Virus record (IMG/VR): IMGVR_UViG_3300046000_003971
Location: 1-28,208 of that record
DNA length: 28,208 bases
Source of the DNA: a virus
Strand: one strand, 5' to 3'
How positions within the stretch are numbered: position 1 is the stretch's first letter; every line of letters begins with the position of its first letter. Below, in pieces: positions 5,393 to 23,683 of the stretch. The notes under the pieces are model-generated. The model was not told the DNA's origin. It saw nothing but the letters and a program-made list of their open reading frames with translations, and made no database searches. The translations under genes were made by a program, and so were the position numbers.

Positions 5393-5418
5393 GAGAGGGG
5401 AGGGAAACCTCCCCTCTC
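5393..5418 (+). terminator. Perfect hairpin with GAAA loop between the capsid-associated genes
   Basis: An 11-bp perfect stem (GAGAGGGGAGG with CCTCCCCTCTC) closes a GAAA tetraloop and is followed by TCTTT. The stem is very stable but the T-tract is weak, so it could be a partial terminator, an mRNA-stabilising 3' end or a processing site. The Shine-Dalgarno GGAGG of the next gene lies 5 bases beyond it. Confidence 0.65.
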
Positions 5419-5869: not shown

Positions 5870-5894
5870 GGGGAGGCGGCAAATCCGCCTCCCC
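5870..5894 (+). terminator. Perfect GC-rich hairpin after the capsid block
   Basis: A 10-bp stem (GGGGAGGCGG with CCGCCTCCCC) closes a CAAAT loop, followed by TCTATCATT. It has the same architecture and location after a gene as the hairpin at 5393 but a different stem and loop. It probably marks the end of the highly expressed capsid transcripts; without a long T-run it may act only partially. Confidence 0.65.
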
Positions 5895-16746: not shown

Positions 16747-16769
16747 CTCCTCGAATCTTCCGATATAGT
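16740..16769 (+). promoter_or_regulatory. Sigma70-like promoter for the early operon
   Basis: A -35 box TCGACA (16740-16745) and a -10 box TATAGT (16764-16769), each matching consensus at five of six positions, are separated by 18 bases. This is the best promoter I can find in the window. Transcription would begin near 16776, inside the operator, and lead into the annealing-protein gene at 16812. Confidence 0.7.
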
Positions 16770-16794
16770 GTCCGCAAGCGGACACGGTGTCCGC
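16768..16794. promoter_or_regulatory. Operator: perfect 18-bp palindrome plus third half-site
   Basis: GTGTCCGC-AA-GCGGACAC (16768-16785) is a perfect inverted repeat that begins inside the -10 box. A third identical half-site GTGTCCGC follows at 16787-16794 in direct orientation. This is the arrangement expected for a dimeric repressor that blocks the promoter at 16740-16769. The repressor is not identified in the window. Confidence 0.75.
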
Positions 16795-16811: not shown

Positions 16812-17690
16812 ATGACAGCAATGATCGTATCGGAGGCCGCGAAGTCGGCCAGTTCTCAACTCGCCATTGCCGGAACAAAGGCCTTGGAGGCGTACATCGC
16901 CGCAGGCGACATCGGCAAACTCGGGCCGGAGCAACGGATCGCTTTGTATCGCGCAGTCTGCGATTCGATGGGGTTAAATCCCCTGACGCAACCGTTTCAG
17001 TATCTGACCCTGAGCGGGAAGACCGTGCTCTATGCAACCAAGAGTTGCACTGAGCAGTTGCGCTCGATTCATGGCGTTTCGGTCGTGCGCATGGAGCGCG
17101 AGATCATCGGCGACATCCTGACCGTCACGGTCGCCGTGACCGAGCGGACAGGCCGCGAAGATATCTCGACTGGCTCGGTCAGCCTCGCCGGATTGAAAGG
17201 CGAGAACTTGAGCAATGCTCACATGAAGGCCGAGACGAAGGCGAAGCGACGTGCCACGCTTTCGATCTGCGGTTTGGCCGTCCTCGATGAAACCGAGGTC
17301 GAGTCGATCGCAGGAGCGCAGGCCGTTCTAGTCGAGCAGTTCCACGCCGAGCCAAAGAAGACATCGAAGCCAACACGCGAGGAACGCCGGAAGGATCTCG
17401 ACGAACTCACGAATCCGAATCCGATCGCGGATCGAGTTCCCGAGGTCGTCGCCGAGGATTGCATCACTATCCTTGCTCGAAGCCCGATTGGCGTAGTCGA
17501 AGGCCGCAATGGCCGCCGCGTCTGGCGGATCGATCAAGAAGATCAGCCTCTCCCAATCGCCGTTCTCTCCGAGGAAATCGCCTCGGGACTGGAGGCGAAT
17601 CAGGCGTTCTCCGTCAACACTCGTGTCCGAGTCAAGGCGCGAGCCAACGGAGGATTCGAGGTCGTCGAGATCATCGGAGACGCGCCATGA
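16812..17690 (+). CDS. Putative RecT/Erf-type single-strand annealing protein
   Basis: A 292-residue protein, first gene after the promoter/operator, with GGAG 7 bases before the ATG (the frame is open upstream but those residues cross the promoter). The core (residues about 43-155) carries ALYRAVCDSMGLNPLTQPFQ, LSGKTVLYATKSCTEQLR, GLKGENLSNAHMKAETKAKR and ATLSICGLAVLDETEVE. This conserved pattern occurs in early phage proteins that I associate with RecT-like DNA annealing, but I could not check it. The C-terminal 100 residues are variable. It would act in phage recombination and replication. Confidence 0.7.
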   Translation: MTAMIVSEAAKSASSQLAIAGTKALEAYIAAGDIGKLGPEQRIALYRAVCDSMGLNPLTQPFQYLTLSGKTVLYATKSCTEQLRSIHGVSVVRMEREIIGDILTVTVAVTERTGREDISTGSVSLAGLKGENLSNAHMKAETKAKRRATLSICGLAVLDETEVESIAGAQAVLVEQFHAEPKKTSKPTREERRKDLDELTNPNPIADRVPEVVAEDCITILARSPIGVVEGRNGRRVWRIDQEDQPLPIAVLSEEIASGLEANQAFSVNTRVRVKARANGGFEVVEIIGDAP

Positions 17691-18289: not shown

Positions 18290-18307
18290 CTCTGGCAGGA
18301 GCCAGAG
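18290..18307 (+). promoter_or_regulatory. Hairpin with AGGA loop before the start at 18321
   Basis: CTCTGGC (18290-18296) pairs perfectly with GCCAGAG (18301-18307), leaving the loop AGGA. The weak ribosome-binding site GAGAG and the ATG follow 13 bases later. In place and in its GGA-containing loop it resembles the three ACGGA-loop hairpins downstream, with a one-base-shorter loop. Confidence 0.55.
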
Positions 18308-18320
18308 AAAGAGAGACGCA

Positions 18321-18938
18321 ATGGAACAAAAGAAGCAAGGCATGACGCGCGAGGAACTCGCCGGATTTACTGCGCGAGCGAATCGCTACTTCAAAGGCGA
18401 AACCGATCGCGAACTCTGGTCACTCGCGCTTCCGCGCATCGCAGAGGAATCCGCCGAAGTCGCGATGGCGGCACTTGAGAACTATTCGATTCAATGGGGG
18501 GGGCCGCGAGCGCGTTTCCTCCCTGCGAAATATTTCGAGTTCCTCGCCGATGTGAAAGTGCGCCGTCTCGAACTGACGCAGCGCGAGGCTCGCGAGCGCG
18601 AAGCGCGGATGCGCTCGATCTCTGCGAGCCGAGATGCGACAGTCTGCGAGGCAGACTGGCTCTCGCGCCGGCGCGAGATCGAGACAGCGAATCCGCTCGA
18701 AGTCGGCGAAGCGGTCGACTACCTGCGCTCGCTTGGTTGGGGTAATCCGCCGGAGTCGTTCGGCGCATGGAGCCGACCTTGGATTCTCGCCGTCTCGGAT
18801 CTCGTCTGCCGGAGGACGCTTGCCGGATACGATCGAGATCGGCAGGGATTCGAGGACGAAGGCCGGAATCCGCTCCGGCCAGTCTCGGCGGCGACTTTCT
18901 ACCGTGAGGCAGGAAAGGCCGCAGGACGGCTCTCCTAG
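18321..18938 (+). CDS. Possible replication protein (helicase-loader-like)
   Basis: A 205-residue charged, helical protein. The N-terminal 75 residues (TREELAGFTARANRYFKGET, DRELWSLALPRIAEESAEVA, AALENYSIQWGGPRARFLPA) recall the N-terminal domain of phage helicase loaders, where a short helical repeat is followed by a proline-bearing loop; the match is by pattern, not by motif. The rest is Arg/Glu-rich. It stands alone between two non-coding regions downstream of the candidate origin, which fits a replication role. Confidence 0.6.
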   Translation: MEQKKQGMTREELAGFTARANRYFKGETDRELWSLALPRIAEESAEVAMAALENYSIQWGGPRARFLPAKYFEFLADVKVRRLELTQREAREREARMRSISASRDATVCEADWLSRRREIETANPLEVGEAVDYLRSLGWGNPPESFGAWSRPWILAVSDLVCRRTLAGYDRDRQGFEDEGRNPLRPVSAATFYREAGKAAGRLS

Positions 18939-18983
18939 CCGCTTGGCCCGTCTGGAGGCCTTCCGAGGCCTGCCGCGCTCCGA

Positions 18984-18997
18984 GGCCCGTACGGGCC
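18984..18997. repeat. Perfect 14-bp palindrome in the gap after 18938
   Basis: GGCCCGTACGGGCC is self-complementary. It lies in a very GC-rich stretch after the stop of the gene at 18321, upstream of the possible promoter near 19035. No T-run follows, so it is not a clear terminator; it may be a binding site. Confidence 0.5.
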
Positions 18998-19009
18998 GTT
19001 TCCCGCGCT

Positions 19010-19040
19010 TTGGATATACAGAGTCCCGATAACCTAGAAT
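19010..19040 (+). promoter_or_regulatory. Possible promoter before the small-gene operon
   Basis: TAGAAT (19035-19040) matches the -10 consensus at five positions. TTGGAT (19010-19015) is a poor -35 box with a long 19-base spacer. A start near 19047 would place a large hairpin (19050-19091) at the very 5' end of the transcript, which gives some support. Confidence 0.35.
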
Positions 19041-19049
19041 CTTGAGGAA

Positions 19050-19091
19050 ATTTCGGAAATGCTCAAGCGATTCCTTGCCTTGAGCCGAAAT
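19050..19091 (+). promoter_or_regulatory. Leader RNA hairpin with internal bulge
   Basis: ATTTCGG (19050-19056) pairs with CCGAAAT (19085-19091), and CTCAAG (19062-19067) with CTTGAG (19079-19084), leaving a five-base bulge on one side and an 11-base loop. Thirteen base pairs in this non-coding leader are unlikely by chance. It is followed by the ACGGA-loop hairpin at 19110. Confidence 0.6.
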
Positions 19092-19109
19092 CTCTGCATA
19101 CTCATCGCA

Positions 19110-19128
19110 TCGAGGCACGGAGCCTCGA
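19110..19128 (+). promoter_or_regulatory. ACGGA-loop hairpin, copy 1
   Basis: TCGAGGC pairs with GCCTCGA around the loop ACGGA. The Shine-Dalgarno AAAGGAG begins six bases later, leading to the ATG at 19146. Confidence 0.7.
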
Positions 19129-19145
19129 AAACAAAGGAGACAGCC

Positions 19146-19352
19146 ATGAGCATCAAAAATATCGAATCCCTGAAGCGTCGCGATCGCGAGACTCTCGAGA
19201 AGTGGGGAGTCGATGCTTGCCGAGAAGCATGGAAAGTATCCGCGAATGGAGAGTCTCCGATCATCCAGTCGATCCGCTCTGGAATTCCAGTCCGATCAAC
19301 CGCTCCCGCAGTTAGAGCGTATCGAGAACTCCTTCGCGCTCAAAGCAAGTGA
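19146..19352 (+). CDS. Small early protein of unknown function (68 aa)
   Basis: A 68-residue basic, helical protein (ESLKRRDRETLEKWGVDACR, VSANGESPIIQSIRSGIPVR). The ATG at 19146 is chosen because of the strong AAAGGAGAC site 6 bases upstream; an earlier start at 19059 would run through the leader hairpins. It is the first of three small genes preceded by ACGGA-loop hairpins. No known family. Confidence 0.75.
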   Translation: MSIKNIESLKRRDRETLEKWGVDACREAWKVSANGESPIIQSIRSGIPVRSTAPAVRAYRELLRAQSK

Positions 19353-19407
19353 ACGACTCGGATCGGAGGAGCCTCTTCGGAGGCTCCTCGAATCTGCGCC
19401 GTGAGCC
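19351..19407 (+). repeat. Duplicated intercistronic RNA element, copy A
   Basis: A 57-base element starting at the stop codon of the 68-residue gene. The first 18 bases (GAACGACTCGGATCGGAG) are identical to copy B. A 10-bp perfect stem (GAGGAGCCTC with GAGGCTCCTC) closes a UUCG tetraloop at 19366-19389. CGAATCTGCGCCGT follows, differing from copy B at one base. It has no T-run, so it is not an ordinary terminator. Confidence 0.8.
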
Positions 19408-19410
19408 AGA

Positions 19411-19429
19411 CTCGCGAACGGATCGCGAG
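19411..19429 (+). promoter_or_regulatory. ACGGA-loop hairpin, copy 2
   Basis: CTCGCGA pairs perfectly with TCGCGAG around ACGGA. The stem sequence is unrelated to copy 1 but the loop is the same. ACAAAGGAGACA follows, then the ATG at 19449. Confidence 0.75.
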
Positions 19430-19448
19430 GAACAAAGGAGACACGCAA

Positions 19449-19772
19449 ATGACAACATTCAATCAAATTCTCGCAGACATTCGCCGATCACTCGCGACGA
19501 CCTATTTCGCAGATCGTGTCAATGCACTCGGATGCAAAATGACGATCGACGCAAATCGGAACATGATTAGCGTCTTCCTCATATCTCCTAGCGATTCGAC
19601 CTTCGAGTTGATCGCGGTCCATCATGGAGAGGATCGCTGGGGAATTCAATCGCGAATCATCAATCCAGAACTTCGCGTCTCGACATCGATGCGAATGCTC
19701 GAAAGAGACATCGCTCGCGAGATCGCCGCAGCATTCGGATCGAATCCGATTAAGGGAATCCTTCCAGAATGA
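19449..19772 (+). CDS. Small early protein of unknown function (107 aa)
   Basis: A 107-residue alpha/beta protein. A helix (FNQILADIRRSLATTYFADR) is followed by strands (CKMTIDANRNMISVFLIS, FELIAVHHGEDRWGIQSRII) and a C-terminal helix (MLERDIAREIAAAFGSNP). The start at 19449 is fixed by AAAGGAGAC. It lies between the two copies of the duplicated RNA element and behind the second ACGGA hairpin, so element and gene may have moved as a cassette. No family recognised. Confidence 0.75.
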   Translation: MTTFNQILADIRRSLATTYFADRVNALGCKMTIDANRNMISVFLISPSDSTFELIAVHHGEDRWGIQSRIINPELRVSTSMRMLERDIAREIAAAFGSNPIKGILPE

Positions 19773-19778
19773 TTCGCT

Positions 19779-19835
19779 GAACGACTCGGATCGGAGAGGC
19801 CTCGCGAGAGGCCTCTCGAATCCGCGCCGTAGGCC
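19779..19835 (+). repeat. Duplicated intercistronic RNA element, copy B
   Basis: Same 57-base length as copy A, with the identical 18-base left flank. Here the 10-bp stem is GAGAGGCCTC with GAGGCCTCTC and the loop is GCGA (19794-19817). Stem changes relative to copy A are compensated on both sides, which indicates selection for RNA structure. GATTCG at 19771-19776 could also pair with CGAATC at 19817-19822. Confidence 0.8.
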
Positions 19836-19839
19836 GGAG

Positions 19840-19856
19840 CCTCGCACGGAGCGAGG
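19840..19856 (+). promoter_or_regulatory. ACGGA-loop hairpin, copy 3
   Basis: CCTCGC pairs with GCGAGG around ACGGA, followed after a short spacer by ACAAGGAGACA and the ATG at 19876. Stem differs again from copies 1 and 2. Confidence 0.7.
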
Positions 19857-19875
19857 AGCAGACAAGGAGACAACC

Positions 19876-20127
19876 ATGCAAGAAGAAGACATCAAGGAAC
19901 TGACCGACCTCGAACTCGATCTCGCGATCTCCGCCATCAACGAACTCATCCGCGAGCCGTTCCGCTGCATTCACGGCGAGTATCCGATGCTCGATCGAGC
20001 CTGCTCTGGTTCTTGGATTCAGGAACTTGAGCAGACTGGCTCGATCGAGATTCCGGCGCACTACTCGCGAACCAAGCGTCTCGAGCAGATCAAGCGCGAA
20101 TCGCTCACGATCGGAGGCTCGCGGTGA
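19876..20127 (+). CDS. Small early protein of unknown function (83 aa)
   Basis: An 83-residue acidic, helical protein (EEDIKELTDLELDLAISAIN, then RLEQIKRESLTIGGSR). The start is set by the strong AAGGAGAC site. It is the third gene with an ACGGA-loop hairpin in its leader. Its stop overlaps the GTG start of the endolysin-like gene. Confidence 0.75.
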   Translation: MQEEDIKELTDLELDLAISAINELIREPFRCIHGEYPMLDRACSGSWIQELEQTGSIEIPAHYSRTKRLEQIKRESLTIGGSR

Positions 20128-20522
20128 CCTCGATCCTCCTCTCTCTGTTCCTGATCGCGCCGCCGAAAGGCACGGACACGCGAGCGATCCTCGACGCGAT
20201 TCGTACCGTCGAGACTGGCGGCGAGGCCGATCCAGATCGAGCGATCGGCGACAAAGGAAAGGCTCTCGGCGCGTACCAGATCCATTTCTCGTATTGGCTC
20301 GACGCGACGGAGAAAGATCCTGCGCTCCGCGCTCTCGGATACGAAAGCGTGACGAATCGCGAGATCGCCGAGCGTGTCGTCATCGCGTATCTGACTCGGT
20401 ATGCACCAGACTGGAAGATTGACACCGTCGCGCGAATCCACAACGGTGGGCCTCGCGGTCACAAGAAAGACAGTACGCTTGAATACGCTCGCAAGGCGCG
20501 AGCAGCAATGGAGACACAATGA
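20124..20522 (+). CDS. Lysozyme-like endolysin or muramidase with N-terminal export sequence
   Basis: A 132-residue protein with a GTG start coupled to the previous stop (GTGA) and GGAGG 6 bases upstream. The hydrophobic first 13 residues (MTSILLSLFLIAP) could be a signal or signal-arrest-release sequence. The catalytic-type glutamate is likely E30 in RTVETGG, followed by IGDKGKALGAYQIHFSYW (41-58) and HNGGPRG (106-112), a lysozyme-superfamily layout as in i-type or transglycosylase-like enzymes. It would cut peptidoglycan. It is encoded among early genes, away from the holin, which is unusual. Confidence 0.75.
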   Translation: MTSILLSLFLIAPPKGTDTRAILDAIRTVETGGEADPDRAIGDKGKALGAYQIHFSYWLDATEKDPALRALGYESVTNREIAERVVIAYLTRYAPDWKIDTVARIHNGGPRGHKKDSTLEYARKARAAMETQ

Positions 20523-21043
20523 ATCGAACCATCTATGACATCAGCGCGGATCTTGCCGCGCTCGAAACGATCCTCCATGAGAATGGCGGAGATCTCTCCG
20601 ATCCGCAGGCAGAGGCCGCGCTCGCAGAATGGGAACGCGAACTCGAATTGGATCTCTTCGGAAAGGTAGACAACTACTGCTCGCTCATCGCGGAACTCGA
20701 ATCGCGAGCGAAATCGCGGCAGGCGGAGGCCGACCGTCTCGCGGATCTCGCGAAGGCCGACGACAAGTCGGCACAAGGCTTGCGCGAGCGTCTGCGATTC
20801 GTTTGGGAGACGAGGAATCTCCCGAAGATCGAAACGTCGCGCTTCCGCGTCGCACTCACGCGAAACGGTGGCAAGGCTCCGCTCGATCTCCGCGTCGGGC
20901 CGGAGGAGTTGCCAGAGTGGGCTATCGAGCGAAAGACGGTCGTGACGGCAAACAAGGACGCGATTCGCGCTCGGCTCGAAGCAGGCGAGAATCTTCCGTT
21001 CGCAAACCTCATGGAACGAGGAACGAGGATCTCGATCAAATGA
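20519..21043 (+). CDS. Siphovirus Gp157-family protein
   Basis: A 174-residue protein matching the Gp157 layout: a helical start (YDISADLAALETILHENGGD), a coiled-coil middle (FGKVDNYCSLIAELESRAKS, QAEADRLADLAKADDKSAQG), then a beta part with KIETSRFRVALTRNGGK, EELPEWAIERKTVVTANKDA and IRARLEAGENLP. Members are common in early regions; some are linked to phage resistance, but a molecular role is not settled. Starts in the preceding stop (ATGA). Confidence 0.85.
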   Translation: MNRTIYDISADLAALETILHENGGDLSDPQAEAALAEWERELELDLFGKVDNYCSLIAELESRAKSRQAEADRLADLAKADDKSAQGLRERLRFVWETRNLPKIETSRFRVALTRNGGKAPLDLRVGPEELPEWAIERKTVVTANKDAIRARLEAGENLPFANLMERGTRISIK

Positions 21044-21261
21044 ATCGGCCCTATCTCTCGAAGCGAGCGCGACAAGGCCTCGAATCTCTCCTCTCGCGCT
21101 CGATTGCAACGACCGAGGAAGATCTCGTCGCGATGCAATGGATTCGCGGAATGCTCGACCGCGCTGCTATCATCGCCAGTCCGAAAGCGCAGGACGCGCC
21201 GTCTCCTCGGATGGGAGGGAGCAGCAATGCTCCCTCCCAAGGAGAGGAGGCCACCACATGA
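21040..21261 (+). CDS. Small early protein (73 aa) with hairpin in its 3' end
   Basis: A 73-residue protein coupled by ATGA on both sides. The first 45 residues are helical (KRARQGLESLLSRSIATTEE, LVAMQWIRGMLDRA). The last 20 are Ser/Gly/Pro-rich and encoded across a perfect hairpin (21212-21239), so the C-terminus may be shaped by RNA rather than protein needs. No family recognised. Confidence 0.7.
   Translation: MNRPYLSKRARQGLESLLSRSIATTEEDLVAMQWIRGMLDRAAIIASPKAQDAPSPRMGGSSNAPSQGEEATT
21212..21239 (+). promoter_or_regulatory. 12-bp hairpin with GCAA loop before the start at 21258
   Basis: TGGGAGGGAGCA pairs perfectly with TGCTCCCTCCCA around the GNRA-type loop GCAA. The Shine-Dalgarno AAGGAGAGGAGG starts at its edge. 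It has the build of the hairpin at 5393 (purine-rich left arm, GNRA loop) but lies within coding sequence, so it is more likely an mRNA processing or translation element than a terminator. Confidence 0.7.
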
Positions 21262-21461
21262 AACAACCGATCGACAAACCGTCGCACTTTGGCCGCGTCA
21301 TCCGGCAGGCCTACGAAGGCGATCGGATCTGGCTCATCGCCGAGAACGGAGACGATCTCGGATTCCTCGAAATGAAGCGCGTTCCCAAGGACGCGAAGAT
21401 CACAGTCGCGCTCTGCTTCGATCGCACGATTCGCATCGAGCGCAGAGAGGAGGAGCGATGA
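21258..21461 (+). CDS. Small early protein (67 aa), possible CsrA-like strand pattern
   Basis: A 67-residue protein with an excellent ribosome-binding site. The second half is beta-rich: GDRIWLIAENGDDLGFLEM, then KITVALCFDRTIRIERREE. This loosely follows CsrA (G-E/D-x-I at the start, a strand, then VRIGxxAPxxVxVxREE), but the invariant CsrA residues are not all present. I treat it as unrecognised with a weak CsrA-like similarity. It is coupled to the wHTH gene downstream (ATGA). Confidence 0.65.
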   Translation: MKQPIDKPSHFGRVIRQAYEGDRIWLIAENGDDLGFLEMKRVPKDAKITVALCFDRTIRIERREEER

Positions 21462-23647: not shown

Positions 23648-23683
23648 GACTCGCCGTTCGCGCTGAACGGCGAGTCTCTTTTT
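23648..23683 (+). terminator. Rho-independent terminator before the lysis genes
   Basis: GACTCGCCGTT (23648-23658) pairs perfectly with AACGGCGAGTC (23666-23676) around a 7-base loop, followed by TCTTTTT. It probably ends the early small-gene transcript. A frame that reads through it (23594-23809) is rejected as a gene. Confidence 0.9.

Follow-up and report, generated by a model that had tools for sequence, protein, structure and literature searches.

The target hairpins of CsrA/RsmE proteins (hcnA, RsmZ and RsmY) present A(N)GGA in the loop of a stem close to the Shine-Dalgarno (SD) sequence and have two GGA sites within bridging distance; the CsrA dimer bridges sites 10–63 nt apart (PMC7652899). 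Genes of the CsrA family also occur in phages, among them F116, phi297, Vibrio phages and PTXU04, and knock-down of csrA in PTXU04 gives smaller plaques (PMC11879866). The function of CsrA-type proteins carried by phages is described as unsettled, and most proposals have them act on the host (PMC7366521; PMC11879866). A different precedent comes from the SAS/ESAS elements of cluster K mycobacteriophages, repeats that lie directly before many gene starts, some of them with inverted repeats (PMC3203893).

Here we analyzed a 28.2-kb virus record (hereafter the window, meaning the whole stretch of 28,208 nucleotides) in which portal, head and tail genes were found, and which has no close GenBank phage by DNA. 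The window carries a family of hairpins at gene starts that resemble CsrA/RsmE targets in two respects, a stem with an A(N)GGA loop close to the SD and a pair of GGA sites within bridging distance. They differ in being pentaloops on 5–7 bp stems, in forming an array in the early region of one phage and in being candidate targets; their stems are longer than those preferred by CsrA in SELEX, and their loops have 5 nt rather than 6. They share with SAS/ESAS the position directly before gene starts, but conservation in SAS/ESAS applies to the sequence itself, whereas in the present family a conserved loop sits on varying stems. SAS/ESAS have also not been tied to a Csr-like gene, and their conserved 13-bp GGGATAGGAGCCC before starts was not found in the window elements, which have ACAAAGGAGACA or a sequence near it after variable stems. 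An earlier sequence-only reading, which knew of no such array described in a phage, was therefore partly right, with the inverted-repeat SAS/ESAS as a precedent (PMC3203893).

That reading had placed four hairpins directly upstream of SD and ATG sites, and all four are present there; it had missed two further elements, before the gene at 16812 and before the Gp157 gene (Table 1). The four stems are perfect, as had been claimed for those at 19110, 19411 and 19840, but these three are not fully unrelated, as CTCGC is common to the stems at 19411 and 19840. The SD and ATG following the hairpins at 19110, 19411 and 19840 read AAACAAAGGAGACAGCCATG, GAACAAAGGAGACACGCAAATG and AGCAGACAAGGAGACAACCATG, and in these three ACGGA copies the loop GGA lies 17–18 nt from the SD GGA, within the 10–63 nt range of the CsrA dimer (PMC7652899). 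CsrA target sites are marked by A(N)GGA in the loop of a hairpin close to the SD, and four window elements show this, though not every element of the relatives does. The weakest of the six is the hairpin at 20487, which falls within the final part of the coding sequence ahead of it. RNA folding predicted each window hairpin, with its loop and SD largely unpaired, and Rfam gave no match of note.

Table 1. Start-site hairpins and associated features of the window.
Position	Strand	Feature	Context
16764–16769	+	TATAGT	Upstream of the 16778 hairpin
16778–16794	+	Start-site hairpin, GCGGAC-ACGGU-GUCCGC	Upstream of gene 16812–17690
18290–18307	+	Start-site hairpin, loop AGGA, CTCTGGC-AGGA-GCCAGAG	Upstream of 205-aa gene 18321–18938
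19097–19102	+	CATACT, possible –10 box (from sequence only), ends 7 nt before stem	TATACT in relatives
19110–19128	+	Start-site hairpin, loop ACGGA, TCGAGGC-ACGGA-GCCTCGA	Upstream of 68-aa gene 19146–19352
19366–19389	+	Strong hairpin, UUCG loop, after stop codon	Upstream of the 19411 element; like arrangement in G015
19411–19429	+	Start-site hairpin, loop ACGGA, CTCGCGA-ACGGA-TCGCGAG	Upstream of 107-aa gene 19449–19772
19794–19817	+	Strong hairpin, GCGA loop, after stop codon	Upstream of the 19840 element
19840–19856	+	Start-site hairpin, loop ACGGA, CCTCGC-ACGGA-GCGAGG	Upstream of 83-aa gene 19876–20127
20487–20503	+	Hairpin, GCTCGC-AAGGC-GCGAGC	Upstream of Gp157 gene 20519–21043
21212–21239	+	12-bp hairpin, GCAA loop (different loop kind)	Directly upstream of csr-like gene
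21258–21461	+	67-aa diverged Csr-like protein, proposed trans-acting factor	Relatives in five lineages

Chance did not reproduce this arrangement in simulation. A(N)GGA hairpins of at least 6 bp before an SD and ATG numbered four on the plus strand of the window and none on its minus strand, and none appeared in 400 simulated windows (first-order Markov sequences with the dinucleotide make-up of the window). Seven plus-strand window hairpins with loops of 4 or 5 nt precede an SD, and in six of them the loop is A(N)GG.

A portal protein search produced 79 related loci, and we compared 36 stretches of relatives, in which distinct start-site hairpins had the loops ACGGA (21), AGGA (5), ATGGA (2) and AAGGA (1). 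Upstream regions were then picked by gene orthology, to avoid selection by pairing. In diverged phages, orthologous genes keep a 5–7 bp hairpin with the stem altered on both arms. For the 205-aa gene, the G013 orthologue has CTCTGGA-AGGA-TCCAGAG in the same place as the window hairpin, and the loops found there in other phages are AGGAC (G014), AGGAU (G017), ACGAU (G015), ACGGA (G020) and AUGAU (G026). The 19110 hairpin has the stem TCGAGGA/TCCTCGA and an unchanged loop in G004, and the 19840 hairpin has the loop ATGGA in G001. The gene at 16812, whose G015 counterpart belongs to the RecT family (hereafter the recombination gene), is preceded in the window and many relatives by loops of ACGGU, ACGGC, ACGAA, ACGGA or ACGAU; in G014, G016, G019, G020 and G026 a search immediately upstream of it revealed no hairpin of the family, and the Gp157 gene lacks one outside the near relatives of the window. 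Loops without GGA occur in the family (ACGAU, AAGAU, AUGAU and ACGGU).

Stems of 28 pentaloop elements were 96% paired, compared with 58% (maximum 70%) when the 3′ arms were shuffled, with several standard pair types at each stem position and a loop consensus of A-N-G-R-N in which A1 and G3 were present in 28 of 28, figures that are partly by construction since manual entry of the elements followed a register that had already been recognized, and elements were selected to fit a pentaloop. Placement by orthology and an enrichment test carry more weight. In seven phages positive for the csr-like gene described below, which include some close relatives and so are not independent, ANGR was the loop type of 26 of the 48 pentaloop hairpins that precede starts and of 44 of the 862 elsewhere (identical copies counted once; odds ratio 22, p = 7e-19); the csr-like-negative control group was weak, consisting mostly of fragmentary contigs without the early region. 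Because a MAFFT alignment of the upstream regions combined loops of 4 nt with loops of 5 nt, it was set aside. The hairpin family is real and conserved, and it is probably recognized through its loop. Compensating stems, orthologous placement and ANGR enrichment agree with the earlier proposal that a conserved loop, changing stems and a fixed position mark a recognized RNA element; in the relatives, pairing is kept and the loop follows A-N-G-R-N.

A candidate for the recognizing factor lies in the phage genome itself. Searching the relatives with a CsrA profile gave a weak match to one ORF of G015 (E = 4.9e-5), whose sole Pfam match is CsrA at 18.7–19.6 bits, below the cut-off of 27. Relatives of the G015 protein are encoded by the 67-aa ORF of the window and by ORFs in G014, G017 and G020, and a profile built without G015 recovers the G015 protein (E = 9.4e-8). 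These csr-like genes lie near the Gp157 gene wherever gene order was inspected and were found in five lineages with hairpin arrays; none was found in the G026 and G019 fragments, though such hairpins are present there. The window protein has no Pfam CsrA match, and its link to CsrA is indirect, running only via the G015 relative in sequence comparisons. HHalign aligned G015 with CsrA over 46 columns (E = 0.0022), whereas the phage family gave non-significant values of 0.07 with G015 and 0.29 without it. With all five proteins the global score exceeded that of all 100 column shuffles but the local score was unremarkable, with 6 of 100 reaching it; without G015 nothing remained. We found no relative of the csr-like protein among GenBank phages, and the known phage csrA genes encode proteins close to bacterial CsrA, unlike this one.

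Predicted models of the window and G015 proteins have five strands and no C-terminal helix, as does RsmN/RsmF, a CsrA-family variant of Pseudomonas (PMC3791407). The models lack the internal helix of RsmN, and sequence similarity to RsmN is weak. For the G015 model, the best fold match in the PDB was the CsrA-family protein RsmN (4krw), at a probability of 0.96 although with E = 0.44, and RsmF also came up, tied with other matches at Z 3.5; the window protein model gave no Csr match in the PDB with Foldseek or VIA. Its best VIA matches were to TRAP, with a score (Z 3.7) not above background, and PDB sequences searched with the phage family profile gave chance matches alone. All the phage proteins have the arginine found at position 62 of the window protein, which aligns with the essential Arg62 of RsmN and Arg44 of RsmA, and HHalign places the G015 arginine on the Arg44 position of CsrA (MREEI on HREEI). 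By analogy, the conserved arginine has a putative RNA-binding role. In the near relatives of the window, a hairpin with a GNRA loop (GCAA, or GAAA in relatives) abuts the SD of the csr-like gene itself, and it possibly serves that gene's own control.

Our leading, though unproven, reading is that the hairpins are RNA elements recognized by a protein and placed where early mRNAs or cistrons of the phage begin, in which A-N-G-R-N would be the recognition site and the stem would merely present the loop. The likeliest partner is the small Csr-like protein that the phage itself encodes, which we infer would bind the loop, often together with the SD GGA 17–18 nt downstream, and would thereby block or retime translation of early genes, the recombination gene included. 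We give an even chance to the hairpins being targets of a phage-borne Csr-like regulator at start sites. It is possible, but we hold this more tentatively, that the lineage has a complete private Csr system, with a diverged protein, a loop specificity that in some members has shifted from ANGGA to ANGAU, and a co-evolving regulon of early-gene start-site hairpins. Several observations count against pairing the array with a Csr protein: the most CsrA-like protein (G015) occurs with ACGAU loops, without GGA; the SD of the 18290 gene, AAAGAGAGACGCAATG, lacks GGA; the G026 and G019 fragments have hairpins of the family but yielded no csr-like gene; the sequence and fold links to CsrA are weak, as described above; and no array was found in five GenBank phages carrying genuine csrA. 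The sequence-only reading had favored a CsrA-type regulator, and the candidate protein in the phage genome bears this out in part, whereas the loops ACGAU, AAGAU, AUGAU and ACGGU fall outside the GGA rule of known CsrA/RsmE and would not be predicted by it. If the leading reading is right, the window phage offers a candidate target set for a Csr-like protein inside the phage genome itself, the natural series of loop variants provides material on how such a protein changes specificity, and this phage and its relatives may possess a private translation switch along with the sites on which it acts.

The hairpins could instead be general 5′-end stabilizers or ribosome standby structures, protecting against 5′ decay and keeping the SD open while no protein reads the loop. 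About one-third of the elements have a TATA(C/G)T box, or a sequence close to it, whose end lies 7–10 nt upstream of the stem, so that the hairpin is probably, judging from these boxes, the first structure of the mRNA; a stem starting at the mRNA 5′ end is what a stabilizer predicts, and the predicted open SD and loop also fit. Stability alone, however, does not explain why A1 and G3 are kept in all 28 loops while stems change, or why ANGR is enriched before starts, and we consider this explanation unlikely. N4-type hairpin promoters were set aside, as the position of the elements is tied to SD sites. Other elements lie downstream of a strong tetraloop hairpin that follows the preceding stop codon. 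The two such hairpins before the 19411 and 19840 elements have no T run and are followed by a conserved spacer (GAATCYGCGCCGT..GCCRGA) able to form its own small hairpin.

We think it distinctly unlikely that host CsrA, rather than a phage protein, reads the loops and lets the phage sense or exploit host physiology. Loops of ACGGA and AGGA obey the A(N)GGA rule for CsrA/RsmE, and RsmE binds AGGGA and AAGGA pentaloops (PMC4005645), but the non-GGA loops of relatives do not fit, and a candidate protein is available in the phage. No prophage relative turned up when 84,980 bacterial and archaeal genomes were searched with the portal protein and the csr-like protein, and no host is named for this reason.

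Another factor might use the loop, either a different phage RNA-binding protein or a ribonuclease of the RegB kind that acts on GGA upstream of starts, as T4 RegB cuts GGAG at early-gene SD sites (PMC3014915). This is less probable still: RNA secondary structure protects against RegB, and no RegB-like gene was noticed in passing. The units might, finally, act mainly as DNA linkers through which small genes are exchanged by recombination. The PeSL units of T4-type phages are stem-loop units of this kind between small exchangeable genes, but they consist of an early promoter and a terminator-like loop rather than an SD-adjacent loop. The 19411 hairpin and its flanks do stand upstream of different genes in G002, G004 and G013 (with the loop ATGGA in G013), but the stem changes from unit to unit, which reduces homology, whereas pairing and loop persist, and the place is always before an SD, making this the least probable of the alternatives, although DNA-level and RNA-level roles could coexist.

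In the early regions of four related loci (L113, L105, L106 and L108), small genes of unassigned function are swapped behind near-identical hairpin units, which suggests cassette shuffling. Two csrA-bearing Vibrio phages, L165 (25203, minus strand) and L166 (22758), have in common a CCGGGGC-GAGGAT-GCCCCGG hairpin, with a single GGA hexaloop, immediately upstream of the SD of one and the same gene (MTQFLRQWKYPSG...). Elsewhere in the window, other long perfect intergenic hairpins at 5393–5418, 5870–5894 and 23648–23676 are probably terminators or mRNA end structures.
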